Assembly: GCA_030765065.1 (NCBI GenBank)
Contig: CM060990.1
Location: 458,450,321 to 458,514,320, forward strand
DNA length: 64,000 nucleotides
From: Deroplatys truncata
Taxonomy: Eukaryota; Arthropoda; Insecta; Mantodea; Mantidae
Direction: 5' to 3'
Positions 3,769 through 43,619 of this stretch are shown in pieces; the first letter of the stretch is position 1; each line of letters starts with the position of its first letter. The notes under the pieces were generated by a model. It searched no databases. It was given only the letters and a program-made list of their open reading frames with translations, and had not been told where the DNA came from. A program made the translations under genes and the position numbers.

Positions 3769-3774
3769 ACCCTC
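3769..3774. repeat. Left candidate target-site duplication (ACCCTC)
   Basis: ACCCTC abuts the first base of the palindrome's inverted terminus. The identical hexamer begins immediately after the last base of the other terminus at 19052-19057. A 6-bp duplication is characteristic of only a few DNA transposon groups, notably Polinton/Maverick. Confidence 0.6.
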
Positions 3775-3844
3775 AGTAGAAACAAAATGCCGGTTTGAGC
3801 ACAGTAGAGAGATGCCGACAAGCGATAAAGTTCTTTGTTCTACA

Positions 3845-4000
3845 CCGACAAGCCCCGCCCCCTCCCTTTGTGTGCTCACATGCCGTCAGGTCTCGTGTCG
3901 TTAGGCCCCGCCCCCTCTCGCTTTGTGTGCTCACCTAATGCCGACAGTGTCTGTGCTAACAGGTCCTACCCCCTCTCCCAATGCGTTCTACTGTGGCGTC
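3845..4000 (+). repeat. Subterminal GC-rich direct repeats (left)
   Basis: Three imperfect units of about 53-58 bp, the first two carrying CCCCGCCCCCTC (3853 and 3906) followed by CTTTGTGTGCTCAC; the third has CCTACCCCCTC. The CCCCGCCC cores look like GC boxes (SP1/KLF-type sites) in an otherwise AT-rich element, so this may be a promoter or a transposase-binding subterminal array. The role is inferred, not shown. Confidence 0.6.
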
Positions 4001-4238
4001 ATGACTTGAGGGAATTGTTTTCTCGAGTCCTGCCGCCCCTCGGCAAATTAATTAGGTAATGTTCGTCAAACATTTTTTTTATGACTACTAAGACCTGCAC
4101 ATTGCATCCTCGAGCAATTAAGTTTTTTGAATAATGAATTGTTGACTGGAGCTTGAGTATAAGTAGTCTGCTCACGGGAACAGTCTGTCATGTAATGAGA
4201 ACACGCAGCCTTCTTCTATCTGGGGAAAGCGCTTGTCC

Positions 4239-4400
4239 ATTAGCTGAACATGTTAGACGCTTTCAACACATTAATAGGCTTTTAAGTTTACATTCTGGAT
4301 CTGTTTACATACATTAGCGAACGACCTACTTCCGCCTGGCGGTAACGGTGACCTCTATTAGCTGACCCGTTAGACGCTTTCACCCCATTAGCGAACAATG
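4239..4400 (+). repeat. Second subterminal direct repeat pair (left)
   Basis: ATTAGCTGA..GTTAGACGCTTTCA..CATTA occurs at 4239-4279 and 4357-4400 with TTAGCGAAC downstream of both. The pair is mirrored in the right arm near 18426-18587. Confidence 0.65.
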
Positions 4401-4517
4401 TCAGTAATTGTTTTCCTAAGTGCTCTGCCCAACACTCAACACTTCAGATTTTAGCGATGGAAATGATATAACAAGCAGCAGCTTCTCCAACGAGTTCCAA
4501 GTTGACCAGGATGGCCG

Positions 4518-7226
4518 GGTTCGAATTACAAATTCAGCTTCTAATAACTCAGAGACTAATTACGATAAAGACGTCAAATAAAGTTTATTACATTAATGTC
4601 ATTAGATAGTTTCTTGTGAATGTATATTTGGGTACATGGTGTCCAGGGTTCGAATACCGATAAAATGTAATTTAATTATAAATTTAATAACTCCTAAACT
4701 AATTAAGATAAAGACACCAAATAAACTTTATTGCCTTTATGTTATTAGGTAGTATCTTGTGGAGGTGTAATTAGATACCTGACGTTCAGGGTTCGAGCCT
4801 AATGTTTAAATCGTCATTATCTCAGAAACTAAGAGAGGTAGAGGAATTGACCAAAGCATGATTGATAGCTCCTATGATGGGCAATTAATACTGTATATAA
4901 TTTTTAATCAGTTGTCCTTATTTCGAATCCCGACCTTTCAATCACTTACTTATTTTTTCTCTATACTCTAGAATATGTCACTTAGATTGATGCTGTAACT
5001 GCATACAGCACCTTTAAACATATCAAACTAATATTGTAAATAATTTTGTTTCTGGTGTCCAGGGTTCGAATACCGATAAAATGTAATTTAATTATAAATT
5101 TAATAACTTCTAAACTAATTAAGATAAAGACGCCAAATAAACTTTATTGCCTTTATGTTATTAGGTATTATCTTGTGGATGTGTAATTAGATACCTGACG
5201 TTCAGGGTTCGATCCTAATTTTTAAATCGTCATTATCTCAGAAACTAAGAGAGGTAGACGAGTGAACCAAAGCATGATTGATAGCTCCTATGAGGGGTAA
5301 TTAACACTGTATATAATTTTCAATCAGTTGTCCTTACTTCGAATCCCGATCTTTCAATCACTTACTTATTTTTTCTCTATACTCTAGAATATATCACTTA
5401 GATTGATGCTGTAACTGCATACAGCACCTTTAAACATATCAAACTAATATTGTAAATAATTTTGTTTCTGGTGTCTAGGGTTCGAATACCGATAAAATGT
5501 AGTTTAATTATAAATTTAATAACTTCTAAACTAATTAAGATAAAGACGCCAAATAAACTTTATTGCCTTTATGTTATTAGGTATTATCTTGTGGATGTGT
5601 AATTAGATACCTGACGTTCTGGGTTCGATCCTAATTTTAAATCGTCATTATCTCAGAAACTAAGAGAGGTAGAGGAGTTGACCAAAGCATGATTGATAGC
5701 TCCTATGATGGGCAATTAATACTGTATATAATTTTCAATCAGTTGTCCTTACTTCGAATCCAGATCTTTCAATCACTTACTTATTTTTTCTCTATACTCT
5801 AGAATATATCACTTAGATTGATGCTGTAAATGCATACAGCACCTTTAAACATATCAAACTAATATTGTAAATAATTTTGTTTCTGGTGTCCAGGGTTCGA
5901 ATACCAATAAAATGTAATTTAATTATAAATTTAATAACTCCTAAACTAATTAAGATAAAGATACCAAATAAACTTTATTGTGTTTATGTTATTAGGTAGT
6001 ATCTTGTGGATGTGTATTTAGATACCTGACGTTCTGGGTTCGAGCCTAATTTTAAATCGTCATTATCTCAGAAACTAAGAGAGGTAGAGGAGTTGACCAA
6101 AGCATGATTGATAGCTCCTATGATGGGCAATTAATACTGTATATAATTTTCAATCAGTTATCCTTACTTCGAATCCCGATCTTTCAATCACTTACTTATT
6201 TTTTCTCTATACTCTAGAATATATCACTTAGATTGATGCTGTAAATGTATACAGCACCTTTAAACATATCAAACTAATATTGTAAATAATTTTGTTTCTG
6301 GTGTCCAGGGTTCGAATACCGATAAAATGTAATTTAATTATAAATTTAATAACTCCTAAACTAATTAAGATAAAGACGCCAAATAAACTTTATTGCGTTT
6401 ATGTTACTAGGTAGTATCTTGTGGATGTGTAATTAGATACCTGACGTTCTGGGTTCGAGCCTAATGTTTAAATCGTCATTATCTCAGAAACTAAGAGAGG
6501 TAGAGGAGTTGACCAAAGCATGATTGATAGCTCCTATGATGGGCAATTAATACTGTATATAATTTTCAATCAGTTATCCTTACTTCGAATCCCGATCTTT
6601 CAATCACTTACTTATTTTTTCTCTATACTCTAGAATATATCACTTAGATTGATGCTGTAAATGTATACAGCACCTTTAAACATATCAAACTAATATTGTA
6701 AATAATTTTGTTTCTGGTGTCCAGGGTTCGAATACCGATAAAATGTAATTTAATTATAAATTTAATAACTCCTAAACTAATTAAGATAAAGACGCCAAAT
6801 AAACTTTATTGCGTTTATGTTACTAGGTAGTATCTTGTGGATGTGTAATTAGATACCTGACGTTCTGGGTTCGAGCCTAATGTTTAAATCGTCATTATCT
6901 CAGAAACTAAGAGAGGTAGAGGAATTGACCAAAGCATGATTGATAGCTCCTATGAGGGGCAATTAATACTGTATATAATTTTCAATCAGCTGTCCTTACT
7001 TCGAATCCCGATCTTTCAATCACTTACTTATTTTTCTCTATACTATAGAATATATCACTTAGCTTGATGCTGTAAATGCATACAGCACCCTTAAACACAT
7101 CAAACTAATATTGTAAATAATTCTGGTTCTGGTGTCCAGGGTTCGAATACCGATAAAATGTAATTTAATTATAAATTTAATAACTCCTAAACTAATTAAG
7201 ATAAAGACACCAAATAAACTTTTATA
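4518..7226 (+). repeat. 415-bp higher-order tandem array (left, ~6 units)
   Basis: GTCCAGGGTTCGAATACC or its variant recurs at 4641, 5057, 5473, 5888, 6303, 6719 and 7133, a period of 414-416 bp: six full units plus a partial one that ends abruptly at about 7226. A divergent half unit begins at 4518. Each unit contains three sub-monomers of about 138 bp, each opening with a TTCGA core (GGTTCGAATACC, GGTTCGAGCC, CTTCGAATCCC). Two of them share a TAATAACTC..AAACTAATTA..GATAAAGAC block. This is satellite-like organisation. No protein is encoded. Confidence 0.85.
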
Positions 7227-7234
7227 GGGGGAAA

Positions 7235-7256
7235 GGATGCTCTCCTGAAACATTAG
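7235..7256 (+). repeat. Junction motif GGATGCTCTC..AACATTAG
   Basis: Sits exactly between the 415-bp and ~74-bp arrays. Related copies lie at about 9592, 9800 and 9830 in this arm and at the mirrored sites in the other arm. Confidence 0.55.
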
Positions 7257-7264
7257 GTCTCTAG

Positions 7265-7825
7265 ATAGAAGTATTTATAGGGGAGAGATAGGGAATACCA
7301 GGGCTGATGCTAGGCTAGTCAGATGCTAAAGGAGGGAGGGATATGCTTTATACGAGAGAGATAGGGAACACAAGGAAAGATGCTATACTAAACAGGACTT
7401 GAAGGATAGAATATGGGCGATATAGCGAACCGAGGAGAGGTATTAGGATAGGAGTTTTGAATGATGGATTAGGTGTTTATATGCGAGAGATAGGGAATAC
7501 GAGGGTCGATGCTAGGCTAGACGGTGTTGAATGAGGGAATGCATCTTATATGAGAGAGGTAGGGGAATATGAGGAGAAGTGCTAGGCTAGTCGGGAAGGT
7601 CTGAATGAGAGAGTATACGTCTATATGGGAAAATATAGGGAAAACGAAGGTAGGTGCTAGGTTGAGAGAGTCTTCAAGGAGGAAAATGCATTTATATGAG
7701 AGCGTTAGGGCATACGAGGAGAGGTGCTAGTCTAGACATGGTTTGAGGATTAGAGTATACGTTTATATGGGAGAAATATGGAAAACGGGAGAGATACAAG
7801 GATAGACAGAGATTGAAGGAGGAGG
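7265..7825 (+). repeat. ~74-bp degenerate tandem array (left)
   Basis: About eight purine-rich units of roughly 70-77 bp built on ATATGNGAGAGATAGGGAATACGAGG, with GATGCTAGGCTAGAC next and TTGAAGGAGGG closing (one degenerate unit, split here into three parts). Units are much more diverged from each other than the two arms are at the same site, so the array predates the inverted duplication. Confidence 0.7.
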
Positions 7826-7829
7826 AATG

Positions 7830-8974
7830 TAGGTTTATACTGTAATATAGAGAGTAATTCGATTATAAAACTTTTCTCATCCAGCCTTACAACACTTTTA
7901 TATACTTATTTTCTAAACCTTACAAACTTTATATTTGTTAAACAGTAGTGCGCGAGACGGAGAGGGACAAACAGTATATCGGTTTACAGTGAAGTATACA
8001 TCCTAACCTATTCCCACCTTGTTTGTTCTGGATCTTCTCATTGTCTATCATCTAACGTAAACACGTAACAAGACGTAACACAGGAAATCATACATATGGC
8101 ACATTAAAAAATAAAGGTATATATAATGAAACATAAACAAGTAGACAGAGGGTCATCGATACATAGAAAACCAGGAGTTGTATGTACTGAGACCATAGAT
8201 TAGTATAGGCAAACAACAAAGAAGTGAATTTATAGTGTAAATAGCCAAATATTTTCAAATATTATTATAGTCTAAAAGTATATAACTTAATTATGTATCG
8301 AGTATTGAGAAATAAACGTTATTCATTATTCACTAATCTCAGATCACTGCAATTGTATTGAATCAATTCACAATTGCTAATGCCATTCAACTTTCATTCG
8401 TCTCTGATACATAAACAAATTGCAAAATGGAGAAGGACGAAAGTAATAAAAAGACTCAGGCAGCAAATTTTAAGAAAGAAGAGAAAGATATATGACCGAC
8501 ATTGTTTTGGAACACAAATTAGTCTTGAAAATAAAATGACTGATAGCTCTGCTAAGCGTAAGGAAGAGACATGGAAATAAATTGCAAATGAATACAATTC
8601 TAGGTTGGAAAAGAAGATAAACAACATTCATGTAAACCAATTTTTAAAAATCAGTTTAACTGAATACATGTAAAAAAAACATATCACTTTACAAAAAGTA
8701 ATGCAGACAACATTTATTTTTTATAAACATTATCCTATTACATTACTTTACAAAAAACCATACATATTTCCTAAAGGCAAAGGTGATAGTCTAGACATTC
8801 TAAACACTCAGTTATATAATCATATACATCACACAGAAAGAGACCTGCATTATCAGTAAAAAAACTAAACATCTCAACAATGTCTGAATGATGTATTTTA
8901 TAAGTACAAGTTTTTTGATATTTCAGTTCCTGTTAACCATGGCAGTAATTGATTAACACAATTTCTCGATCCTG
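7830..8974. other. Unique non-repetitive part of left arm
   Basis: Mostly non-coding. A 68-codon lysine/arginine-rich frame at 8374-8580 and an overlapping opposite frame have no supporting motif. An AATAAA signal on the minus strand at about 8713-8718 lies 3' of the zinc-finger ORF. Confidence 0.5.
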
Positions 8975-9442
8975 TCATGCTATAACTTTAGATGCTTTCA
9001 GCTTACTTATAATTTCCTCAATCTCTTGTGTGTGACTATTATTACCAGCATCCCTCGACGCAATTAGTAACCTCAATATATTTACTAGTCTATTCGGATT
9101 TTCAAGCGTTGATATCACTGAATCATCATCATCTGAAGATTTCATATTCTCGCAACTTCCGATGTATCCAGATTTTTCACCAACAGTAGTCTCCAGTGAA
9201 GGACAGAGGCTTGATCCGGTATAACATTCCCCTCTATACATCTTCGGATCTTCAAGTGCAGGTGAGAGAGTCGATTCAGTATAACATGTTGCTCTATGAA
9301 ACTTAAATCTTGACAAAGAACGATTCTTAAAAATCCGCCCGCATACACAGCATCTAATAACGCGTTTTCCTCCATGTGTAATGTATGAAAAATCGTGTTT
9401 CTCATTCGTCAGTTGCACAGATTTTCTCGGGCAGTAGCTCAT
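8975..9442 (-). CDS. Zinc-finger-like protein, 155 aa (left-arm copy)
   Basis: ATG at 9440-9442 with A at -3, stop at 8975. Residues 31-53 contain C-x2-C-x14-H-x3-C (the CVCG knuckle, then FHRATC), a single zinc-finger-like module reminiscent of BED-type fingers found in transposases. The middle is Ser/Thr/Glu-rich with two similar ESTLSP / GSSLCP segments, then an acidic SSDDDD run. The C-terminus (RLVNILRLLI and EIEEIISKLKAS) could form amphipathic helices. There is no DDE catalytic region, so it is not a transposase. A pyrimidine tract plus AG just upstream of the ATG looks like a splice acceptor, so this may be a coding exon. The right-arm copy differs by one residue (Tyr versus His in the KM-Y/H-RGE segment). 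Function is unknown; DNA binding to the element's own repeats is a guess. Confidence 0.5.
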   Translation of the reverse strand: MSYCPRKSVQLTNEKHDFSYITHGGKRVIRCCVCGRIFKNRSLSRFKFHRATCYTESTLSPALEDPKMYRGECYTGSSLCPSLETTVGEKSGYIGSCENMKSSDDDDSVISTLENPNRLVNILRLLIASRDAGNNSHTQEIEEIISKLKASKVIA

Positions 9443-9588
9443 GCTAAAACTAAAAGAAATTAAATGAATACGTGAATGCTAACGCTCGAAGGAATTAAAA
9501 GCGAATGAATGAATTCATAACACGCACCTATGTATATATCCAGGATGAGGACGACGGAGGGAATTGCGATCAATGCATAGCAGGGAGA

Positions 9589-9850
9589 AAGGATACTCTC
9601 TTGAAACATTAGTCATCTAAACAACTATTGTTCACGGAGCCTGTAGACGTCAGGTTGAATGGGACAGACCTCAGCTTCAAATCTTTAAGGGTACGGACCC
9701 CTGGCTTTTGCCTGGCATGTATACTAAACCATCCTAACAGCGTAACATTACATAACAACGACACGTAACCAGAACATGACGAGTGCGAGCATGGAAAAAA
9801 GGATGCTCGCTGAGAACATTAGTGGAAAAGGATGCTCTCTGGAAACAGTC
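9589..9850 (+). repeat. Cluster of three junction motifs (left)
   Basis: Three variants of AAAGGATGCTCTC..GAAACATTAG begin near 9589, 9796 and 9827, the last two almost in tandem. They bracket the segment between the zinc-finger ORF and the minisatellite. Confidence 0.5.
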
Positions 9851-9867
9851 GCCATCCGCACAATGGA

Positions 9868-10135
9868 TTGTCCCTAACATTTCCAGATTTCAAAACGTTC
9901 AACATCGTGACGCGCTACTGTCATCTACATTTCGACGAAATTTTATATCCTGAATTAGTTTGATGCTCTGTATAGAACCTCAGAACATGCATTACGCTGC
10001 GTGTCCCTAGCGTTTCCAGCTCCTGAATCGTTCCAGCTAGTGGAATGCCTCTACCATCTTCATGTCAACGATCTGTTACTCTGAATTAAAGTTTGGTGAT
10101 ATGTATAGACCTGTACAACATGCATTACGCTATGT
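9868..10135 (+). repeat. Two diverged ~134-bp units leading into the minisatellite (left)
   Basis: Each unit starts TGTCCCTA.CNTTTCCAG and ends AACATGCATTACGCT; internal blocks TCTACCATCTTCAT / TCATCTACATTTC and TGAATTA.TTTG correspond. The last unit ends ACAACATGCATTACGCTATG, which is nearly the 21-bp minisatellite unit, so the minisatellite probably grew from the end of this repeat. Confidence 0.65.
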
Positions 10136-11438
10136 AACAGACTCATCACGCTATGTAACAACACAATCACGCTATGTAACAACTGATCACGCTATGTAAC
10201 AACACGATCACGCTATGTAACAACCTGAGCACGCTATGTAACAACATGATCACGCTATGTAACAACTGATCACGCTATGTAACAACCTGAGCAGGCTATG
10301 TAACAACATGTTCACGCTATGTAACAACCTGAGCACGCTATGTAACAACCTGAGCACGCTATGTAACAACATGTTCACGCTATGTAACAACATGAACACG
10401 CTATGTAACAATACGATCACGCTATGTAACAACCTGATTACGCTATGTAACAACTGATCACACTATGTAACAACATGATCACGCTATGTAACAACCTGAG
10501 CACGCTATGTAACAACATGATCACGCTATGTAACAACCTGAGCACGCCATGTAACAACATGATCACGCTATGTAACAACATGTTCACGCTATGTAACAAC
10601 ACGATCACCCTATGTAACAACCTGAGCACGCTATGTAACAACATGATCACGCTATGTAACAACATGATCACGCTATGTAACAACCTGAGCACGCTATGTA
10701 ACAACATGATCACGCTATGTAACAACATGAACACGCTATGTAACAACCTGAGCACGCTATGTAACAACCTGAGCACGCTATGTAACAAACTGAGCACGCT
10801 ATGTAACAACATGTTCACGCTAATTAACAACCTGAGCACGCTATGTAACAACCTGAGCACGCTATGTAACAATACGATCACGCTATGTAACAACCTGATT
10901 ACGCTATGTAACAACTGATCACGCTATGTAACAACATGATCACGCTATGTAACAACCTGAGCACGCTATGTAACAACATGATCACGCTATGTAACAACAT
11001 GATCACGCTATGTAACAACATGATCACGCTATGTAACAACCTGAGCACGCTATGTAACAACATGATCACGCTATGTAACAACTGATCACGCTATGTAACA
11101 ACATGATCACGCTATGTAACAACATGATCACGTTATGTAACAACATGATCACGCTATGTAACAACCTGAGCACGCTATGTAACAACATGATCACGCTATG
11201 TAACAACCTGAGCACGCTATGTAACAACCTGAGCACGCTATGTAACAACATGTTCACGCTATGTAACAACCTGAGCACGCTATGTAACAACCTGAGCACG
11301 CTATGTAACAACATGTTCACGCTATGTAACAACATGAACACGCTATGTAACAACATGATCACGCTATGTAACAACATGTTCACGCTATGTAACAACACGA
11401 TCACCCTATGTAACAACATGATCACGCTATGTAACACG
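10120..11438 (+). repeat. 21-bp minisatellite (left, about 62 units)
   Basis: Unit CACGCTATGTAACAACATGAT. Nearly all variation is in the seven bases before CACGCTATG: CATGATC, CCTGAGC, CATGTTC, CATGAAC, CACGATC, TACGATC, CCTGATT. Because 21 is divisible by 3, frames stay open for long distances on both strands as seven-residue repeats. Occasional 20-bp units (AACTGATC) break the frame. These frames are not genes. Confidence 0.95.
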
Positions 11439-12094
11439 ACTAGTGGCATTTACTTTCGTCATAATATCAGTCAAGTTTTATTAAAGACATTTCTTGCTAC
11501 AACGCTTAGTTTTGGATATATTGTATAGCCTCAACTTAAATGGTCCACCCTATTTACATAGCGTGATCATGTTGCTACATAGCGTGATCATGTTGTTACA
11601 TAGTGTGATCGCGTTGTTACATAGCGTGATCAGGTTGTTACATAGCGTGATCAGGTTGTTACATAGCGTGATCATGTTGTTACATAGCGTGAACATGTTG
11701 TTACATAGCGTGATCAGGTTGTTAAATAGCGTGATCGTGTTGTTACATAGCGTGATCGTGTTGTTACATAGCGTGATCAGGTTGTTACATAGCGTGATCA
11801 GGTTGTTACATAGCGTACTCAGGTTGTTACATAGCGTGATCATGTTGTTACATAGCGTGTTCATGTTGTTACATAGCGTGATCATGTTGTTACATAGCGT
11901 GCTCAGGTTGTTACATAGCGTGTTCATGTTGTTACATAGCGTGATCATGTTGTTACATAGCGTGATCGTGTTGTTACATAGCTTGATCGTATTGTTACAT
12001 AGCGTGAACATGTTGTTACATAGCGTGATCATGTTGTTATATAACGTGCTCAGGTTGTTACATAGGGTGATCGTGTTGTTACATAGCGTGAACA
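11146..12094. other. Asymmetric centre of the palindrome
   Basis: Mirror order of minisatellite variants holds up to a shared variant unit with CACGTTATG (left 11125-11145, right about 12095-12115) and then fails. The centre consists of left-oriented units to 11438, a 120-bp non-array spacer, and right-oriented units from 11556, in different variant orders. Confidence 0.7.
11441..11553 (+). mobile_element. One end of a MITE at the palindrome centre
   Basis: Matches the terminal region of the element at 59991-60632: GGCATTTACTTTC, then a diverged stretch, AAGACATTTCTT, ACAACGC.TAGTTTTGGA.AT, CTCAACTT, ending TGGTCCACCCTAT (the inverse of that element's ACAGGGTGGACT start). Only one end is present. 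It abuts the right minisatellite directly. Confidence 0.7.
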
Positions 12095-13121
12095 TGTTGT
12101 TACATAACGTGATCATGTTGTTACATAGCGTGATCATGTTGTTACATAGCGTGATCAGTTGTTACATAGCGTGATCATGTTGTTACATAGCGTGCTCAGG
12201 TTGTTACATAGCGTGATCATGTTGTTACATAGCGTGATCATGTTGTTACATAGCGTGATCATGTTGTTACATAGCGTGCTCAGGTTGTTACATAGCGTGA
12301 TCATGTTGTTACATAGCGTGATCAGTTGTTACATAGCGTAATCAGGTTGTTACATAGCGTGATCGTATTGTTACATAGCGTGCTCAGGTTGTTACATAGC
12401 GTGCTCAGGTTGTTAATTAGCGTGAACATGTTGTTACATAGCGTGCTCAGTTTGTTACATAGCGTGCTCAGGTTGTTACATAGCGTGCTCAGGTTGTTAC
12501 ATAGCGTGTTCATGTTGTTACATAGCGTGATCATGTTGTTACATAGCGTGCTCAGGTTGTTACATAGCGTGATCATGTTGTTACATAGCGTGATCATGTT
12601 GTTACATAGCGTGCTCAGGTTGTTACATAGGGTGATCGTGTTGTTACATAGCGTGAACATGTTGTTACATAGCGTGATCATGTTGTTACATGGCGTGCTC
12701 AGGTTGTTACATAGCGTGATCATGTTGTTACATAGCGTGCTCAGGTTGTTACATAGCGTGATCATGTTGTTACATAGTGTGATCAGTTGTTACATAGCGT
12801 AATCAGGTTGTTACATAGCGTGATCGTATTGTTACATAGCGTGTTCATGTTGTTACATAGCGTGAACATGTTGTTACATAGCGTGCTCAGGTTGTTACAT
12901 AGCGTGCTCAGGTTGTTACATAGCGTGAACATGTTGTTACATAGCCTGCTCAGGTTGTTACATAGCGTGATCAGTTGTTACATAGCGTGATCATGTTGTT
13001 ACATAGCGTGCTCAGGTTGTTACATAGCGTGATCGTGTTGTTACATAGCGTGATCAGTTGTTACATAGCGTGATTGTGTTGTTACATAGCGTGATGAGTC
13101 TGTTACATAGCGTAATGCATG
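11556..13121 (-). repeat. 21-bp minisatellite (right, about 74 units)
   Basis: Same unit in reverse orientation (ATCATGTTGTTACATAGCGTG). From about 12095 outward the order of variants is the mirror of the left array. The innermost ~540 bp is not. Confidence 0.95.
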
Positions 13122-13372
13122 TTGTACAGGTCTATACATATCACCAAACTTTAATTCAGAGTAACAGATCGTTGACATGAAGATGGTAGAGGCATTCCAC
13201 TAGCTGGAACGATTCAGGAGCTGGAAACGCTAGGGACACGCAGCGTAATGCATGTTCTGAGGTTCTATACAGAGCATCAAACTAATTCAGGATATAAAAT
13301 TTCGTCGAAATGTAGATGACAGTAGCGCGTCACGATGTTGAACGTTTTGAAATCTGGAAATGTTAGGGACAA
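13105..13372 (-). repeat. Two diverged ~134-bp units (right)
   Basis: Mirror copy of 9868-10135. Confidence 0.65.
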
Positions 13373-13797
13373 TCCATTGTGCGGATGGCGACTGTTTCCA
13401 GAGAGCATCCTTTTCCACTAATGTTCTCAGCGAGCATCCTTTTTTCCATGCTCGCACTCGTCATGTTCTGGTTACGTGTCGTTGTTATGTAATGTTACGC
13501 TGTTAGGATGGTTTAGTATACATGCCAGGCAAAAGCCAGGGGTCCGTACCCTTAAAGATTTGAAGCTGAGGTCTGTCCCATTCAACCTGACGTCTACAGG
13601 CTCCGTGAACAATAGTTGTTTAGATGACTAATGTTTCAAGAGAGTATCCTTTCTCCCTGCTATGCATTGATCGCAATTCCCTCCGTCGTCCTCATCCTGG
13701 ATATATACATAGGTGCGTGTTATGAATTCATTCATTCGCTTTTAATTCCTTCGAGCGTTAGCATTCACGTATTCATTTAATTTCTTTTAGTTTTAGC

Positions 13798-14265
13798 ATG
13801 AGCTACTGCCCGAGAAAATCTGTGCAACTGACGAATGAGAAACACGATTTTTCATACATTACACATGGAGGAAAACGCGTTATTAGATGCTGTGTATGCG
13901 GGCGGATTTTTAAGAATCGTTCTTTGTCAAGATTTAAGTTTCATAGAGCAACATGTTATACTGAATCGACTCTCTCACCTGCACTTGAAGATCCGAAGAT
14001 GCATAGAGGGGAATGTTATACCGGATCAAGCCTCTGTCCTTCACTGGAGACTACTGTTGGTGAAAAATCTGGATACATCGGAAGTTGCGAGAATATGAAA
14101 TCTTCAGATGATGATGATTCAGTGATATCAACGCTTGAAAATCCGAATAGACTAGTAAATATATTGAGGTTACTAATTGCGTCGAGGGATGCTGGTAATA
14201 ATAGTCACACACAAGAGATTGAGGAAATTATAAGTAAGCTGAAAGCATCTAAAGTTATAGCATGA
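13798..14265 (+). CDS. Zinc-finger-like protein, 155 aa (right-arm copy)
   Basis: Mirror copy of the ORF at 8975-9442: same length, start and stop, with one visible residue change (TAT to CAT, Tyr to His). The C-x2-C-x14-H-x3-C module (residues 31-53), acidic run and C-terminal helices are intact. A possible splice acceptor (TTTCTTTTAG) ends at 13790, eight bases before the ATG. An AATAAA lies at 14525-14530. Two intact copies in a sequence otherwise free of long frames suggest either selection or very recent duplication; the near-identity of the surrounding non-coding DNA makes recent duplication the simpler explanation. No function can be assigned. Confidence 0.5.
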   Translation: MSYCPRKSVQLTNEKHDFSYITHGGKRVIRCCVCGRIFKNRSLSRFKFHRATCYTESTLSPALEDPKMHRGECYTGSSLCPSLETTVGEKSGYIGSCENMKSSDDDDSVISTLENPNRLVNILRLLIASRDAGNNSHTQEIEEIISKLKASKVIA

Positions 14266-14471
14266 CAGGATCGAGAAATTGTGTTAATCAATTACTGCCA
14301 TGGTTAACAGGAACTTTGAAATATCAAAAAACTTGTACTTATAAAATACATCATTCAGACATTGTTGAGATGTTTAGTTTTTTTACTGATAATGCAGGTC
14401 TCTTTCTGTGTGATGTATATGATTATATAACTGAGTGTTTAGAATGTCTAGACTATCACCTTTGCCTTTAG
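14262..14471 (+). CDS. Small hypothetical ORF, 69 aa, right arm only
   Basis: Starts with ATGA overlapping the stop of the zinc-finger ORF. It is tyrosine/cysteine/leucine-rich with no recognised motif. In the left arm the same stretch lacks 2 bp (GGAACTGAAATA versus GGAACTTTGAAATA), which breaks the frame, so it is probably 3' untranslated sequence rather than a gene. Confidence 0.15.
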   Translation: MTGSRNCVNQLLPWLTGTLKYQKTCTYKIHHSDIVEMFSFFTDNAGLFLCDVYDYITECLECLDYHLCL

Positions 14472-15416
14472 GAAATATGTATGGTTTTTTGTAAAGTAAT
14501 GTAATAGGATAATGTTTATAAAAAATAAATGTTGTCTGCATTACTTTTTGTAAAGTGATATGTTTTTTTTACATGTATTCAGTTAAACTGATTTTTAAAA
14601 ATTGGTTTACATGAATGTTGTTTATCTTCTTTTCCAACCTAGAATTGTATTCATTTGCAATTTATTTCCATGTCTCTTCCTTACGCTTAGCAGAGCTATC
14701 AGTCATTTTATTTTCAAGACTAATTTGTGTTCCAAAACAATGTCGGTCATATATCTTTCTCTTCTTTCTTAAAATTTGCTGCCTGAGTCTTTTTATTACT
14801 TTCGTCCTTCTCCATTTTGCAATTTGTTTATGTATCAGAGACGAATGAAAGTTGAATGGCATTAGCAATTGTGAATTGATTCAATACAATTGCAGTGATC
14901 TGAGATTAGTGAATAATGAATAACGTTTATTTCTCAATACTCGATACATAATTAAGTTATATACTTTTAGACTATAATAATATTTGAAAATATTTGGCTA
15001 TTTACACTATAAATTCACTTCTTTGTTGTTTGCCTATACTAATCTATGGTCTCAGTACATACAACTCCTGGTTTTCTATGTATCGATGACCCTCTGTCTA
15101 CTTGTTTATGTTTCATTATATATACCTTTATTTTTTAATGTGCCATATGTATGATTTCCTGTGTTACGTCTTGTTACGTGTTTACGTTAGATGATAGACA
15201 ATGAGAAGATCCAGAACAAACAAGGTGGGAATAGGTTAGGATGTATACTTCACTGTAAACCGATATACTGTTTGTCCCTCTCCGTCTCGCGCACTACTGT
15301 TTAACAAATATAAAGTTTGTAAGGTTTAGAAAATAAGTATATAAAAGTGTTGTAAGGCTGGATGAGAAAAGTTTTATAATCGAATTACTCTCTATATTAC
15401 AGTATAAACCTACATT

Positions 15417-15977
15417 CCTCCTCCTTCAATCTCTGTCTATCCTTGTATCTCTCCCGTTTTCCATATTTCTCCCATATAAACGTATACTCTAATCCTCAAA
15501 CCATGTCTAGACTAGCACCTCTCCTCGTATGCCCTAACGCTCTCATATAAATGCATTTTCCTCCTTGAAGACTCTCTCAACCTAGCACCTACCTTCGTTT
15601 TCCCTATATTTTCCCATATAGACGTATACTCTCTCATTCAGACCTTCCCGACTAGCCTAGCACTTCTCCTCATATTCCCCTACCTCTCTCATATAAGATG
15701 CATTCCCTCATTCAACACCGTCTAGCCTAGCATCGACCCTCGTATTCCCTATCTCTCGCATATAAACACCTAATCCATCATTCAAAACTCCTATCCTAAT
15801 ACCTCTCCTCGGTTCGCTATATCGCCCATATTCTATCCTTCAAGTCCTGTTTAGTATAGCATCTTTCCTTGTGTTCCCTATCTCTCTCGTATAAAGCATA
15901 TCCCTCCCTCCTTTAGCATCTGACTAGCCTAGCATCAGCCCTGGTATTCCCTATCTCTCCCCTATAAATACTTCTAT
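15417..15977 (-). repeat. ~74-bp degenerate tandem array (right)
   Basis: Mirror of 7265-7825; pyrimidine-rich on this strand, with CTAGCCTAGCATC and CGTATTCCCTATCTCTC as recurring blocks. Confidence 0.7.
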
Positions 15978-16014
15978 CTAGAGACCTAATGTTTCAGGAG
16001 AGCATCCTTTCCCC

Positions 16015-18310
16015 CTATAAAAGTTTATTTGGTGTCTTTATCTTAATTAGTTTAGGAGTTATTAAATTTATAATTAAATTACATTTTATCGGTATTCGAA
16101 CCCTGGACACCAGAACCAGAATTATTTACAATATTAGTTTGATGTGTTTAAGGGTGCTGTATGCATTTACAGCATCAAGCTAAGTGATATATTCTATAGT
16201 ATAGAGAAAAATAAGTAAGTGATTGAAAGATCGGGATTCGAAGTAAGGACAGCTGATTGAAAATTATATACAGTATTAATTGCCCCTCATAGGAGCTATC
16301 AATCATGCTTTGGTCAATTCCTCTACCTCTCTTAGTTTCTGAGATAATGACGATTTAAACATTAGGCTCGAACCCAGAACGTCAGGTATCTAATTACACA
16401 TCCACAAGATACTACCTAGTAACATAAACGCAATAAAGTTTATTTGGCGTCTTTATCTTAATTAGTTTAGGAGTTATTAAATTTATAATTAAATTACATT
16501 TTATCGGTATTCGAACCCTGGACACCAGAAACAAAATTATTTACAATATTAGTTTGATATGTTTAAAGGTGCTGTATACATTTACAGCATCAATCTAAGT
16601 GATATATTCTAGAGTATAGAGAAAAAATAAGTAAGTGATTGAAAGATCGGGATTCGAAGTAAGGATAACTGATTGAAAATTATATACAGTATTAATTGCC
16701 CATCATAGGAGCTATCAATCATGCTTTGGTCAACTCCTCTACCTCTCTTAGTTTCTGAGATAATGACGATTTAAAATTAGGCTCGAACCCAGAACGTCAG
16801 GTATCTAAATACACATCCACAAGATACTACCTAATAACATAAACACAATAAAGTTTATTTGGTATCTTTATCTTAATTAGTTTAGGAGTTATTAAATTTA
16901 TAATTAAATTACATTTTATTGGTATTCGAACCCTGGACACCAGAAACAAAATTATTTACAATATTAGTTTGATATGTTTAAAGGTGCTGTATGCATTTAC
17001 AGCATCAATCTAAGTGATATATTCTAGAGTATAGAGAAAAAATAAGTAAGTGATTGAAAGATCTGGATTCGAAGTAAGGACAACTGATTGAAAATTATAT
17101 ACAGTATTAATTGCCCATCATAGGAGCTATCAATCATGCTTTGGTCAACTCCTCTACCTCTCTTAGTTTCTGAGATAATGACGATTTAAAATTAGGATCG
17201 AACCCAGAACGTCAGGTATCTAATTACACATCCACAAGATAATACCTAATAACATAAAGGCAATAAAGTTTATTTGGCGTCTTTATCTTAATTAGTTTAG
17301 AAGTTATTAAATTTATAATTAAACTACATTTTATCGGTATTCGAACCCTAGACACCAGAAACAAAATTATTTACAATATTAGTTTGATATGTTTAAAGGT
17401 GCTGTATGCAGTTACAGCATCAATCTAAGTGATATATTCTAGAGTATAGAGAAAAAATAAGTAAGTGATTGAAAGATCGGGATTCGAAGTAAGGACAACT
17501 GATTGAAAATTATATACAGTGTTAATTACCCCTCATAGGAGCTATCAATCATGCTTTGGTTCACTCGTCTACCTCTCTTAGTTTCTGAGATAATGACGAT
17601 TTAAAAATTAGGATCGAACCCTGAACGTCAGGTATCTAATTACACATCCACAAGATAATACCTAATAACATAAAGGCAATAAAGTTTATTTGGCGTCTTT
17701 ATCTTAATTAGTTTAGAAGTTATTAAATTTATAATTAAATTACATTTTATCGGTATTCGAACCCTGGACACCAGAAACAAAATTATTTACAATATTAGTT
17801 TGATATGTTTAAAGGTGCTGTATGCAGTTACAGCATCAATCTAAGTGACATATTCTAGAGTATAGAGAAAAAATAAGTAAGTGATTGAAAGGTCGGGATT
17901 CGAAATAAGGACAACTGATTAAAAATTATATACAGTATTAATTACCCATCATAGGAGCTATCAATCATGCTTTGGTCAATTCCTCTACCTCTCTTAGTTT
18001 CTGAGATAATGACGATTTAAACATTAGGCTCGAACCCTGAACGTCAGGTATCTAATTACACCTCCACAAGATACTACCTAATAACATAAAGGCAATAAAG
18101 TTTATTTGGTGTCTTTATCTTAATTAGTTTAGGAGTTATTAAATTTATAATTAAATTACATTTTATCGGTATTCGAACCCTGGACACCATGTACCCAAAT
18201 ATACATTCACAAGAAACTATCTAATGACATTAATGTAATAAACTTTATTTGACGTCTTTATCGTAATTAGTCTCTGAGTTATTAGAAGCTGAATTTGTAA
18301 TTCGAACCCG
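16015..18310 (-). repeat. 415-bp higher-order tandem array (right, ~5 units)
   Basis: GGTATTCGAACCC recurs near 16091, 16506, 16921, 17336, 17752 and 18168. There is one unit fewer than in the left arm, which accounts for the 414-bp difference in arm length. Confidence 0.85.
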
Positions 18311-18425
18311 GCCATCCTGGTCAACTTGGAACTCGTTGGAGAAGCTGCTGCTTGTTATATCATTTCCATCGCTAAAATCTGAAGTGTTGAGTGTTGGGCA
18401 GAGCACTTAGGAAAACAATTACTGA

Positions 18426-18980
18426 CATTGTTCGCTAATGGGGTGAAAGCGTCTAACGGGTCAGCTAATAGAGGTCACCGTTACCGCCAGGCGGAAGTAG
18501 GTCGTTCGCTAATGTATGTAAACAGATCCAGAATGTAAACTTAAAAGCCTATTAATGTGTTGAAAGCGTCTAACATGTTCAGCTAATGGACAAGCGCTTT
18601 CCCCAGATAGAAGAAGGCTGCGTGTTCTCATTACATGACAGACTGTTCCCGTGAGCAGACTACTTATACTCAAGCTCCAGTCAACAATTCATTATTCAAA
18701 AAACTTAATTGCTCGAGGATGCAATGTGCAGGTCTTAGTAGTCATAAAAAAAATGTTTGACGAACATTACCTAATTAATTTGCCGAGGGGCGGCAGGACT
18801 CGAGAAAACAATTCCCTCAAGTCATGACGCCACAGTAGAACGCATTGGGAGAGGGGGTAGGACCTGTTAGCACAGACACTGTCGGCATTAGGTGAGCACA
18901 CAAAGCGAGAGGGGGCGGGGCCTAACGACACGAGACCTGACGGCATGTGAGCACACAAAGGGAGGGGGCGGAGCTTGTCG
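18426..18980 (-). repeat. Subterminal repeats (right)
   Basis: Mirror of the two left subterminal repeat sets: GAAAGCGTCTAAC pairs at about 18445 and 18563, and GAGGGGGCGGGG-type GC boxes at about 18910 and 18962. One GC box has a C-to-T difference from the left arm. Confidence 0.6.
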
Positions 18981-19051
18981 GTGTAGAACAAAGAACTTTA
19001 TCGCTTGTCGGCATCTCTCTACTGTGCTCAAACCGGCATTTTGTTCCTACT

Positions 19052-19057
19052 ACCCTC
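19052..19057. repeat. Right candidate target-site duplication (ACCCTC)
   Basis: Identical to 3769-3774 and immediately adjacent to the palindrome terminus (..TTGTTCCTACT). Confidence 0.6.
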
Positions 19058-39789: not shown

Positions 39790-41534
39790 AGCGGGAACTT
39801 CAAGCAGAGGAACATACGTGGGCGCTCTTGCGGCGTCTACGCCGACAGGTCCGTCTCCGCCTACGCGAGCACCATGTGCAAGCGTGGGAGGATACGATGA
39901 CCAGATTGCGTATCGATTGTGACGACGTGTGGAGGATTGCAAAAAGCCTCGGAAACCGTCGAGGCCAATACACCTCTCCACTCCAAGGCACCCAAGACCT
40001 CGTCTATGAACCCCAGGCCAAAGCAAATGTGTTCGCTGATTATCTTGAACGTACCTTACGTCCGAGAGAAGACCCCCAGGACGACATCTTTTCCGAACAC
40101 GTTCGTCGGGAGGTACGCTAATACTTTCGGCGCCCTCCGAACGACGCGGATCGCCCGAATGAGCTCCACGGCGCACTCCTGTGTCTCAACCCCAAAAAGG
40201 CGGCCGGACCTGACCGGCTAACCCCGCTCATGCTCCGACACCTTCCCTTCAACGCTGTGCTCTTTCTAACCCGAGTATTCGACATGTGTCTCGCTCTGGG
40301 TCACTTTCCAAGAGAGTGGCGAGAGGCCCGTGCGATATGCATTTTGAAGCCGGGGAAAGACCCGGTACATCCTTCAAACTACCGATCCATCAGTCTCCTT
40401 CCGACCCTCTCGAAAGTTCTCGGGAGGATGATCCTCAACCGCTGGTCCCCACTTTTGGGAGACATTCAAGCCATCCCGGACCACCAGTTTGGATTTCGTC
40501 CTGGGCATTCGACATCTCAGCAGCTGCTGCAAGTGGTGGAGACAGGTTTCCAGGAGAGTTGCTTTACCGCCGCGGTATCGCTGGATGTCGAAAAGGCCTT
40601 CTCAACGACGTGGCATGCGGGTCTCCTGTATAAACTCATCCACCTGGGATTACCAACACAGGTTAACAACATCCTACACAGTTTTCTACGACACCGAACA
40701 TTTAAAGTTTCAGTTGCCGGGAAAACATCTACACTTAGGCCAGTTAGAGGCGGAGTCCCTGAAGGCTCTGTTCTATCCCCCACGCTCTTCAGCGTCTTCA
40801 GGGCAGAACTTCCAACGCAGCAGCAAGTCGAAATGGCCCAGTATGCTGACGACGTGCTGCTGTACTGCTCAAACAAAAACCTAATCAGAGCCTTCAACCC
40901 AATACAGAGACACCTCTGTCTCATCCAGCAGTGGTGCCGGCGTTGGCGCATGTCCGTTAACGCGGACAAGAGCCACGCCATGCTTCTAACGAAGCGCCAC
41001 ATCCCCGCAGACTGCCCCACATTTCAATTTCGAGGCCGAAGGATTGAATGGAGGAATTATATAACCTACCTGGGAGTGAAGCTGGATAAGAGTCTAACTT
41101 TTGGCGAGCACATCTGGGACGTCTCGGCACGGGCGCAGGGAGCGATTGCCTCCTTGTACCCTATGCTGAGATCCGGGATGCGTGTTCACCTGAAGATACA
41201 ACTTTTCCGAGCCCTGATAGTCCCCCTCATGCTTTACGCCTGCGAGGTCTGGGGCATGGCCGCAGGCAGCTGGCTGCTATGGCTACAACGGGCGCACAAT
41301 AGGGGACTTCGGTCCATCTATTCTGTCGGCCGCTCCTTCCCCGTGAGACTACTACACAAAGCCTCATCTCTTCCATATGTGGAAGATGAAATTAGGCGCC
41401 GGGCTACAAAATTTTACGCCAGTTTACCAAACCATCAGAGTATCCTGGTCAGATCACTTGGGGATTACAACCCTAGAAATCGCCGTCTTCGGCGTCATCG
41501 GGTTCCCCGCATGGCATGCGGGCACACCAGATAA
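39790..41534 (+). pseudogene. Jockey-type LINE reverse transcriptase, nearly intact 3' part
   Basis: One frame runs from about 39790 to 41534 with a single stop (TAA, 40119-40121). Upstream of the stop is the basic linker region (LRRLRRQVRLRLREHHVQAWE, split in function from the catalytic part). After it come KKAAGPDRLTP, ICILKPGKDP, NYRSISLLPTLSKVLGRMIL, the HQFGFRPGHST motif, SLDVEKAFSTTWH (first Asp), GGVPEGSVLSPTLFS and QYADDVLLY (40842-40862; catalytic YADD intact). Then come the thumb WRMSVNADKSH, YLGVKLDKSLTF, and a C-terminal LQRAHNRGLRSI. No RNase H follows, consistent with Jockey. The N-terminal endonuclease is absent. GC content is far above its surroundings. The 3' untranslated part extends to perhaps 41870. 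Apparently one of the younger elements in the window. Confidence 0.9.
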
Positions 41535-42194: not shown

Positions 42195-43432
42195 AGCTTT
42201 CAGGTGTGATCCACGACACTTTTCTGCTTATCCACTGTCACTTGTTGAATTCCTTGCTGTACCAATATTTCAACATCAGCGATACGGAACCTTGTTTTAT
42301 ATTCTGCATCATAACCTTTTACTTGTGCCCAAATTAATTCAATGACAGTGGCAGGGAAGAAGCCTGATGACAATATGACCGTAGCAGCAGCAATGGTGTC
42401 TATCTCGTGAGTGCAGAACCGGTGCTTGTACAATTCTAAATTTGCATGAGTTCCGCTTTCGTCGTTTCTGTAGACACTCCAGCTATGTTGTTCTTCTCCA
42501 TCCTTGCAGAATGAGTTTTTCCTGTCGTTCAATGTCGGCGCTTTGCTTAATTGCACCGAGTGGTATTGCGCATTGTTCTTAACAATAATGGAGTTTGCAC
42601 CGATGTTTAGCAGAAGAAATTCTTGGAACTAGCTCATTCATGTCTTCATGATAATCACGAGTGCTCTTTGGTTTGAATAAGAAGAGCATTGTCCCTGGAG
42701 CAAAACCGTACACGCCACTAGCATGAAGCAGAATCAATCTACTTCCTTTTCCAACTGACACTTTCATTGTCCCTGCAAGGGTGCCATCTGTCCATGCCTT
42801 TGTCTTAGTGTGTCCTGCATTTCCCCACGTTTCATCAAGCCATCCCACCTTTCCGGGATTGGTTTTCAGAATTCCTCGCAAAAATTTGCCACCCCATGCA
42901 ATATTCTCACTGCTTTCCATCACAGCTTTCCTCTCAGAAAATTTCATAAACCGAAAAGTTCTTTGAGCAATTTACTTACGCTGATTTTTCCGCCATAGAA
43001 TAAGCCAACTTCCTTCAGAGAGAACAGCAGCTTCTCACGAGTAGGAAATTCCTTCCTCATATAATAATGATACACGTGCTGCCTAATCGCATCCTTTTGA
43101 AATGCATCAAGTGAAACTTTAAGGCTGGCTCGTGTTCTCTGCTTTCCAGGTGTACGCAGAACTGCAGACGGCGTATTAAAAGCAACTGGGCACTTTTCCT
43201 TTGTCACACTCTTCACGGTGGTTTTACGCGCCTTCAATGCGTTACAAACCCTATTCACCACTTTGGTAACAGGTAGAATGGGTCCACAATCGCCCTGCTC
43301 CTTCTCAAAACTACTCACGAAGCCTGAATACAAATTCACGGCCTTGGCTCTTATAAGAACGAATTTATTTCTTAAACTCTGACGACATATTGTTATAATA
43401 ACAATGATGATAGTAATAAGACTTACACACAA
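42195..43432 (-). pseudogene. IS630/Tc1-like DDE transposase relic (second family)
   Basis: Three consecutive blocks in different frames. N-terminal block (42944-43432): AVLRTPGKQRTRA, then FQKDAIRQHVYHYYMRKEFP, then LFYGGKISVSKLLKEL. A 1-base shift leads to RFMKFSERKAVMES and the catalytic VGWLDETWGN (first Asp, about 42834), KVSVGKGSRLILLHA and KSTRDYHEDMN. A second shift and a small deletion lead to SIIVKNNAQYHSVQLSKAPT, where the usual second Asp is Asn (about 42577). The last block has IELIWAQVKG (third acidic residue kept) and FRIADVEILVQQGIQQVTV. This layout is widespread in insects and distinct from the DUF4817 mariners here. Two frameshifts and loss of a catalytic Asp make it inactive. 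Confidence 0.85.
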
Positions 43433-43619
43433 TGAAATCGGATTTCACACACGCACAAAATAGCAAACAAACTTCACCAACACAAACACTAAAAGCAACT
43501 GAGGCCACGTGGTCCTTACAAAACGGAGCTGGCATCACGGTGCTAGATTTGCAAGCCACGCTTAGCAGCGAGACTGGTGATGGTGCTAGCAGACAGTTTA
43601 ACATCCCGTGCTAAAAGTT

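Follow-up and report, generated by a model that had tools for sequence, protein, structure and literature searches.

What kind of transposon can be a palindrome over nearly its whole length, and how are its two halves kept equal? The question is raised by an element of 15,277 bp at 3775..19051 of a 64,000-nucleotide stretch from the mantis Deroplatys truncata (GenBank assembly GCA_030765065.1, contig CM060990.1, positions 458,450,321 to 458,514,320 of the forward strand), the whole of which is here called the window. A reading made from the letters of the window (the sequence-only reading) had described a 15.3-kb palindrome resembling one giant foldback transposon with exact inverted termini and a 6-bp duplication. 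Self-BLAST, arm alignment and paired matches in the insect's own genome bear this out at the same coordinates: a left arm of 7,662 bp (3775..11436, + strand) is mirrored by a right arm of 7,498 bp (11554..19051, − strand) that is its reverse complement. Homology between the arms ends precisely (AGTAGAAACAAAATGCC on the left, AGTAGGAACAAAATGCC on the right), stopping at AGTAG on both sides, and outward of both termini stands ACCCTC, a perfect target-site duplication (TSD; 3769..3774 and 19052..19057, from self-comparison and a TSD script). The palindrome was confirmed as a real transposon and as a member of a family of giant palindromes. Our preferred reading, which we consider probable without holding it firmly, is that the family represents non-autonomous Polinton/Maverick derivatives, palindromes of about 15-21 kb consisting almost entirely of terminal inverted repeat (TIR), which would be rebuilt through a hairpin at their centre.

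The family was searched for in the insect's own genome (4.29 Gb, 818 contigs) using the first 861 bp of the element as query, and the 40 best matches were scored out of 2,975 first-look candidates. Thirty-six of these formed 18 facing pairs with a spacing of 14.7-21.2 kb and four were ends without a scored mate, so that the genome contains at least 22 palindrome elements. In the 18 elements read at both ends the arms measure about 7.3-10.6 kb, half of the element; in the single-end elements C16e, C14b and C9d both halves of the palindrome centre were found in the 10 kb examined, and in C14c one half. Each of the 18 insertion sites has its own perfect 6-bp duplication next to AGTAG ends, the window copy included, which settles in the affirmative whether other copies share these features. 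The script identified 16 of the duplications, none of them longer than 6 bp, and those of C6b (GGCGTC) and C16d (GTGATA) were established after the true ends had been located. Chance as an explanation of the ends is ruled out by the 18 elements with facing ends and their own duplications.

Empty sites, which the sequence-only reading had raised for other individuals or haplotypes, exist here in paralogous repeats: the flanks of C14a and C6a, joined minus one duplication, align continuously through uninterrupted copies of a dispersed repeat beside other elements, and on the flank of C9c the two sides of C14a overlap by exactly the six duplicated bases. A third case is provided by C9b, where the joined flanks span two weaker repeat copies (70% and 76%); in C13 and C5 the flanks, once joined, fall inside tandem arrays with periods of 76 bp and 58 bp, respectively. 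Insertion takes place as a single unit, bounded exactly by AGTAG...CTACT and flanked by 6-bp target duplications, which implies that an integrase or transposase works on a form of the element whose ends are fixed and upholds the view of a transposon made almost wholly of inverted repeat.

From the end inward, each arm comprises a variable end module of about 31 bp, some 830 bp with few differences between elements, a 415-bp tandem array, about 2.9 kb containing a GA-rich stretch and one open reading frame (ORF), a 21-bp tandem array and the central hairpin. In the window copy, Tandem Repeats Finder placed the 415-bp arrays at 4637..7222 (+, 6.2 units) and 16020..18189 (−, 5.2 units), and the 21-bp arrays, also seen by self-comparison, fill the inner arms at 10112..11436 (+) and 11554..13128 (−). 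Direct alignment of the window arms over 3775-10110 revealed four differing sites, all of them transitions, together with one 416-bp tandem unit present in one arm only and a 2-bp indel; differences within the 21-bp arrays were whole units.

This near-identity extends to the family. For the middle region, 19 arm sequences were compared at 53 sites whose minor allele occurs in two or more elements, both arms being available for seven elements. Not one of 371 informative cells differed between arms (2,000 draws of random pairing: mean 78.7, minimum 42), and all 24 single-base inter-arm differences were private to one element. In the end region beyond position 32 (18 elements), 5 of 360 cells were heterozygous versus 78.8 under random pairing, and 29 further inter-arm differences were private; when the terminus was included, the corresponding figures were 13 of 617 and 172.7. 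Private differences occur in 12/18 elements in the end region and in 14/18 when the middle is counted as well. In the middle-region tree the arms formed sister rows in all seven elements (identical in one, with good support in four and weak support, 80/78 and 83/79, in two), and 12 of 18 arm pairs were sisters in the end-region tree. The arm comparisons show that the two arms of every insertion derive from a single ancestral arm.

The centre of the palindrome follows a different pattern. In ten other elements it is 377 bp long, with 119 nt between two inverted flanks of 129 bp, and these ten elements with a full tip have no unique central part. Four of the ten tip cores were folded as DNA and gave almost complete hairpins, each with a loop of 4 nt (−37.6 to −45.0 kcal/mol, z −9.9 to −13.1; none of 200 shuffles equal). 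A unique central spacer was rejected on the strength of the ten hairpin centres, and comparison with these identified the unpaired 117-bp "spacer" of the window copy (11437..11553) as a deletion remnant of one hairpin half, the loop and the other half being lost. The claim that the entire 15.3 kb is TIR thus holds for nearly the whole element, with these 117 bp as the unpaired part. The deletion apparently arose at a short homology to the 21-bp unit, and such asymmetrising central deletions would stabilise a palindrome. Columns of the tip that differ between the halves in at least 9/10 elements are found solely at positions 1-66 from the centre and include a 7-nt indel at 24-30. The outermost common asymmetric site, at 66, is present in nine of the ten elements; C14a is equal there, as well as at 47 and at 52. 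Of the 19 differing columns beyond position 75 from the centre, 14 are confined to one element and five to two or three. The confinement of the asymmetry to the tip argues that two distinct half-tips are inherited side by side, with the sequence outside them equalised.

At the opposite extremity, the outer ~30 bp are highly variable among elements, and all 18 elements carry the same variant on both ends. In the window copy the left module is AGTAGAAACAAAATGCCGGTTTGAGCACAGT (3775..3805, +) and the right (19021..19051, −) repeats it except for position 6, where G replaces A. The terminal 32 aligned columns are identical on both ends in 11 of the 18 elements; in C16d these columns cover the inner part only, and the true ends are identical over 45 bp. 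Four elements differ at position 6 alone and C9c at position 6 plus one indel. The ends of C7a show by eye a 1-bp deletion and a substitution at 30, its position 6 call being a misalignment around the deletion, and in C6b (L041) the right module, which lacks a short internal piece of the left one, keeps its outer ~18 bp and its TSD. Position 6 (3780 and 19046 in the window) is recurrently heterozygous, A/G in the window copy and C7b and C/T in C5, C9c and C16c; as the last base of the second AGN in the end motif, it may be linked to replication initiation. Another irregular terminus was read in L050 (G000:C14:69693075; left end alone), where AGTAGTAGGAATAAAATG has one AGT more than its relatives and the left arm is without most of the middle region; the extra AGT might reflect slippage at a protein-primed origin.

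The end modules do not follow the bodies of the elements. Ten element pairs differ at only 6-9 of ~2,880 bp in the middle, and nine of these differ at 6-13 of 30 terminal bp, the tenth (C9b-C9d) at 2 of 30; conversely, C14a and C9a have identical end modules yet 51 middle-region differences. Among 45 non-independent pairs from 10 elements, the distance at the terminus was not correlated with that of the middle (Spearman −0.12, p 0.42), whereas that of the adjacent 830 bp was (Spearman 0.50, p 0.0004; same pairs). These comparisons show a reshuffling of end modules between elements relative to their bodies.

Insertion as a unit, equality of the arms, asymmetry of the tip and symmetry of the end modules are direct observations, and the last three together suggest that, during transposition or close to it, one arm acts as template for its partner, that this copying mostly leaves the tip alone, and that an end module, when replaced, is replaced at both termini. 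A single strand folded on the tip and copied to the terminus would explain all three. In the cycle we envisage, the Polinton-type integrase and protein-primed polymerase of a helper would act on the element ends, and a displaced single strand would fold back on the central hairpin, which would serve as primer or loop. Copying, or correction, of one arm against its partner would then proceed to the terminus, and the full linear palindrome, ready to be integrated, would be restored by replicating through the hairpin; the source of the end modules would be a further, conjectural step. To our knowledge, the replication of Polintons themselves has been deduced from gene content and not observed. 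We put forward more tentatively that the heritable unit may be the half element: each insertion would regenerate from one arm through self-primed copying that starts at the hairpin tip (up to ~66 nt a side), the tip itself being rarely re-copied and the ~30-bp end module swapped independently, which would make the family a chromosomal "snapback" satellite of Polintons.

The link to Polintons comes from comparison with known systems. Vertebrate Mavericks are described with AGT-type ends, perfect 6-bp TSDs, a length of 12.7-24.6 kb, TIRs of 46-1,447 bp and about eight genes, and Polinton/Maverick termini with the forms (AGT)2//(ACT)2 or (AG)3//(CT)3 (PMC8097293). The palindromes share the 6-bp duplication, the AGT-type ends, the size range and the inverted termini, and their ORF has a domain in common with a gene adjacent to an integrase (see below). 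All palindrome ends read start with AGT, with any of the four bases at position 6 (AGTAGA/C/G/T). C5, C9c and C16c each have the full (AGT)2 at a single end, and the sole end read in C14c perhaps has it too. In contrast to Mavericks, the TIR makes up nearly the whole element, far above the published vertebrate lengths, each arm has one small ORF, and the family falls outside the gene-content definition.

Foldback and Galileo elements of Drosophila have been described with long, internally repetitive inverted repeats, a likeness to the 415-bp and 21-bp tandem repeats within the palindrome arms. Foldback elements are mostly non-autonomous. Galileo of D. willistoni, from the P superfamily, is reported to duplicate 7 (rarely 8) bp with the consensus GTATTAC (PMC4168063). 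The palindromes instead duplicate 6 bp in 18/18 cases without this consensus, and their ends are different. Tc4 of C. elegans is a mobile near-perfect palindrome of ~1.6 kb with arms of ~0.77 kb and a fixed target motif; it is ten times smaller than the window-type palindromes and its target is different. Comparable self-complementary derivatives of a linear DNA genome are the defective adenovirus dimers. Snapback genomes of adeno-associated virus are described as self-complementary, keeping one moiety with its end and replicating with helper functions (PMC8235507); these are viral subgenomes, whereas the palindromes are a family of transposons in chromosomes, bearing target duplications and a hairpin tip that is inherited. 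The palindrome works like a foldback element and, by its ends, duplication and gene domain, looks like a Polinton derivative. Between the two options of the sequence-only reading, an undescribed class or an extreme non-autonomous derivative, these same features favour the latter, and one related to Polintons. The literature searched, a coverage that leaves out most subscription journals, yielded no account of an all-TIR Polinton.

Frames of at least 150 codons in the element comprise a 167-codon frame and those running through the 21-bp arrays, and no others. The former (left arm 8975..9478, −; right-arm copy 13762..14265, +, from the ORF list and arm comparison) encodes 155 amino acids (aa) from the first Met at 9442, with a zinc-finger-like CxxC...HxxxC motif at the N-terminus followed by a C-terminal domain of 41 aa. 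Pfam detected no domain of protein-primed DNA polymerase B (PolB), retrovirus-like integrase or P-type transposase in this frame, and, as judged by its coding content, the palindrome is not an autonomous Polinton. A strongly conserved transposase was likewise rejected: 21 variable sites among 19 arm copies split 7/5/9 over the codon positions, two copies are broken (C5_R and C9a_L), and Pfam matches are weak and below cut-off. A 5.8 billion-protein database yielded one match up to E 1 (P0001, 39%), and a profile search added nine more proteins (eight with E ≤1.5e-5, one with 0.19), mostly matched over the C-terminal quarter and seven of them labelled PF26634. The combination of zinc-finger-like motif and C-terminal domain also occurs in proteins P0001 and P0002; scans of IMG/VR with queries A1 and A2 gave no relatives. 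Separately, the left arm contains broken frames at 8428-8690, which resemble a decayed Myb/SANT-type domain.

The genome was also searched with P0006, one of these database proteins, the best 150 of 5,938 candidates being scored. One P0006-like locus was read (L053, G000:C1) and contains an ORF of 259 aa that matches the palindrome ORF at 78% identity over the final 41 aa and overlaps a second ORF, of 320 aa, encoding an rve integrase core (Pfam rve E 1.4e-9, above cut-off; prototype foamy virus (PFV) integrase in the PDB, E 3e-5). The C-terminal 41-aa domain is the sole part common to the palindrome ORF and this integrase-overlapping ORF. Another P0006-like match (G000:C16:503185297-503185776) lies 12.5 kb from palindrome C16c (C16:503197808), possibly as a nested or neighbouring insertion. 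The PolB domain family DNA_pol_B_2 is abundant: among the best 76 loci, scored from 11,882 first-look candidates, many have open frames over 1,200 aa, which makes helper elements in this genome plausible. Several PolB loci have equal score and frame length, which suggests a recent spread of such elements. Two PolB matches on opposite strands 16 kb apart (G000:C4:11089823 and 11105705) are to be read as nested or neighbouring elements. Two stretches around one PolB gene (L051 and L052, G000:C3:71462400-71464400 and 71467300-71470300) contain, besides this gene, neighbouring ORFs with one weak P-loop match and an upstream opposite-strand frame that looks dUTPase-like; as a source of Polinton termini they were dismissed, neither stretch showing an element end.

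Several observations weigh against a Polinton derivative rebuilt through its hairpin. No polymerase or integrase was found among the element's frames of at least 150 codons, shorter or intron-split genes remaining possible. Nor did an autonomous element with these termini come to light, though no search aimed at one was completed. The nearest NCBIfam models of the L053 integrase are IS481 and IS3 transposases, below their cut-offs; it is from resemblance that we take it to be a Polinton integrase, no PolB having been read beside it. The 76 scored PolB loci have none of the 150 listed P0006-like matches and none of the 22 palindromes within 25 kb, the P0006-like and PolB lists used for this distance test being small top slices. 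The end-region tree leaves C2, the window copy, C16b, C16c and C6a unresolved and separates the arms of C7b. Both alleles of an inter-arm difference occur in other elements for C2 at 70 and 97, C7b at 813 and C14a at 786, and for position 6 in the window copy, C7b, C5, C9c and C16c. Array length is unequal between arms in 6/7 elements for the 415-bp and 7/7 for the 21-bp repeat; exact copying at birth is therefore insufficient, and slippage during or after copying would be needed. Finally, gene conversion inside the chromosome, the main rival, could yield much of the observed pattern.

According to this rival, which we judge rather unlikely, the transposon is the same and its palindrome is copied faithfully, the arms being equalised after insertion by ordinary gene conversion, the process that keeps the arms of sex-chromosome palindromes identical. 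Homogeneous arms around an unconverted centre are what it predicts where tracts fail near the hairpin tip, and a few inherited inter-arm differences do exist. However, the persistence of private differences (12/18 elements in the end region, 14/18 with the middle) implies that conversion has not kept pace with mutation since insertion; differences that separate elements almost never occur between arms; and the outermost shared asymmetric site is at the same 66 bp from the centre in nine of ten elements, C14a excepted. A new superfamily unrelated to Polintons, in which the 6-bp duplications and AG ends would be coincidental and the C-terminal domain captured by chance, appears improbable, as AGT ends, 6-bp TSD, size range and the domain of the integrase-adjacent gene all agree on Polinton; in its favour, other superfamilies with 6-bp duplications exist, the element's frames of at least 150 codons include no Polinton enzyme, no autonomous partner came to light, and the integrase beside the related gene in L053 is without a demonstrated Polinton setting. 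Fold-back chimeras occur in long-read data and our evidence is drawn from the assembly, not from reads, but an assembly or sequencing artefact, or an inverted segmental duplication, is scarcely credible given 18 insertion sites with their own perfect 6-bp TSDs, private inter-arm differences and empty paralogous sites.

With its mutually copied arms, preserved hairpin tip and interchangeable end modules, this all-TIR family seems to record its own replication intermediate, and its arm-specific differences and tip asymmetry are natural marked substrates for testing a hairpin or panhandle intermediate. It also consists of near-perfect palindromes of 15-21 kb that are able to spread and persist in chromosomes. 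If the snapback proposal is true, this transposon would pass through a hairpin in its life cycle much as the defective genomes of DNA viruses do.

Elsewhere in the window, the stretch 40122-41534 contains an ORF for a reverse transcriptase of the long interspersed nuclear element (LINE) type (Pfam RVT_1, 2.3e-36). Among the 120 reverse-transcriptase matches listed, identity does not exceed 46%, and those with a named source come from arthropods. A 166-codon ORF at 42944-43444 (−) had no match in Pfam and resembles part of an insect DNA-transposon protein.

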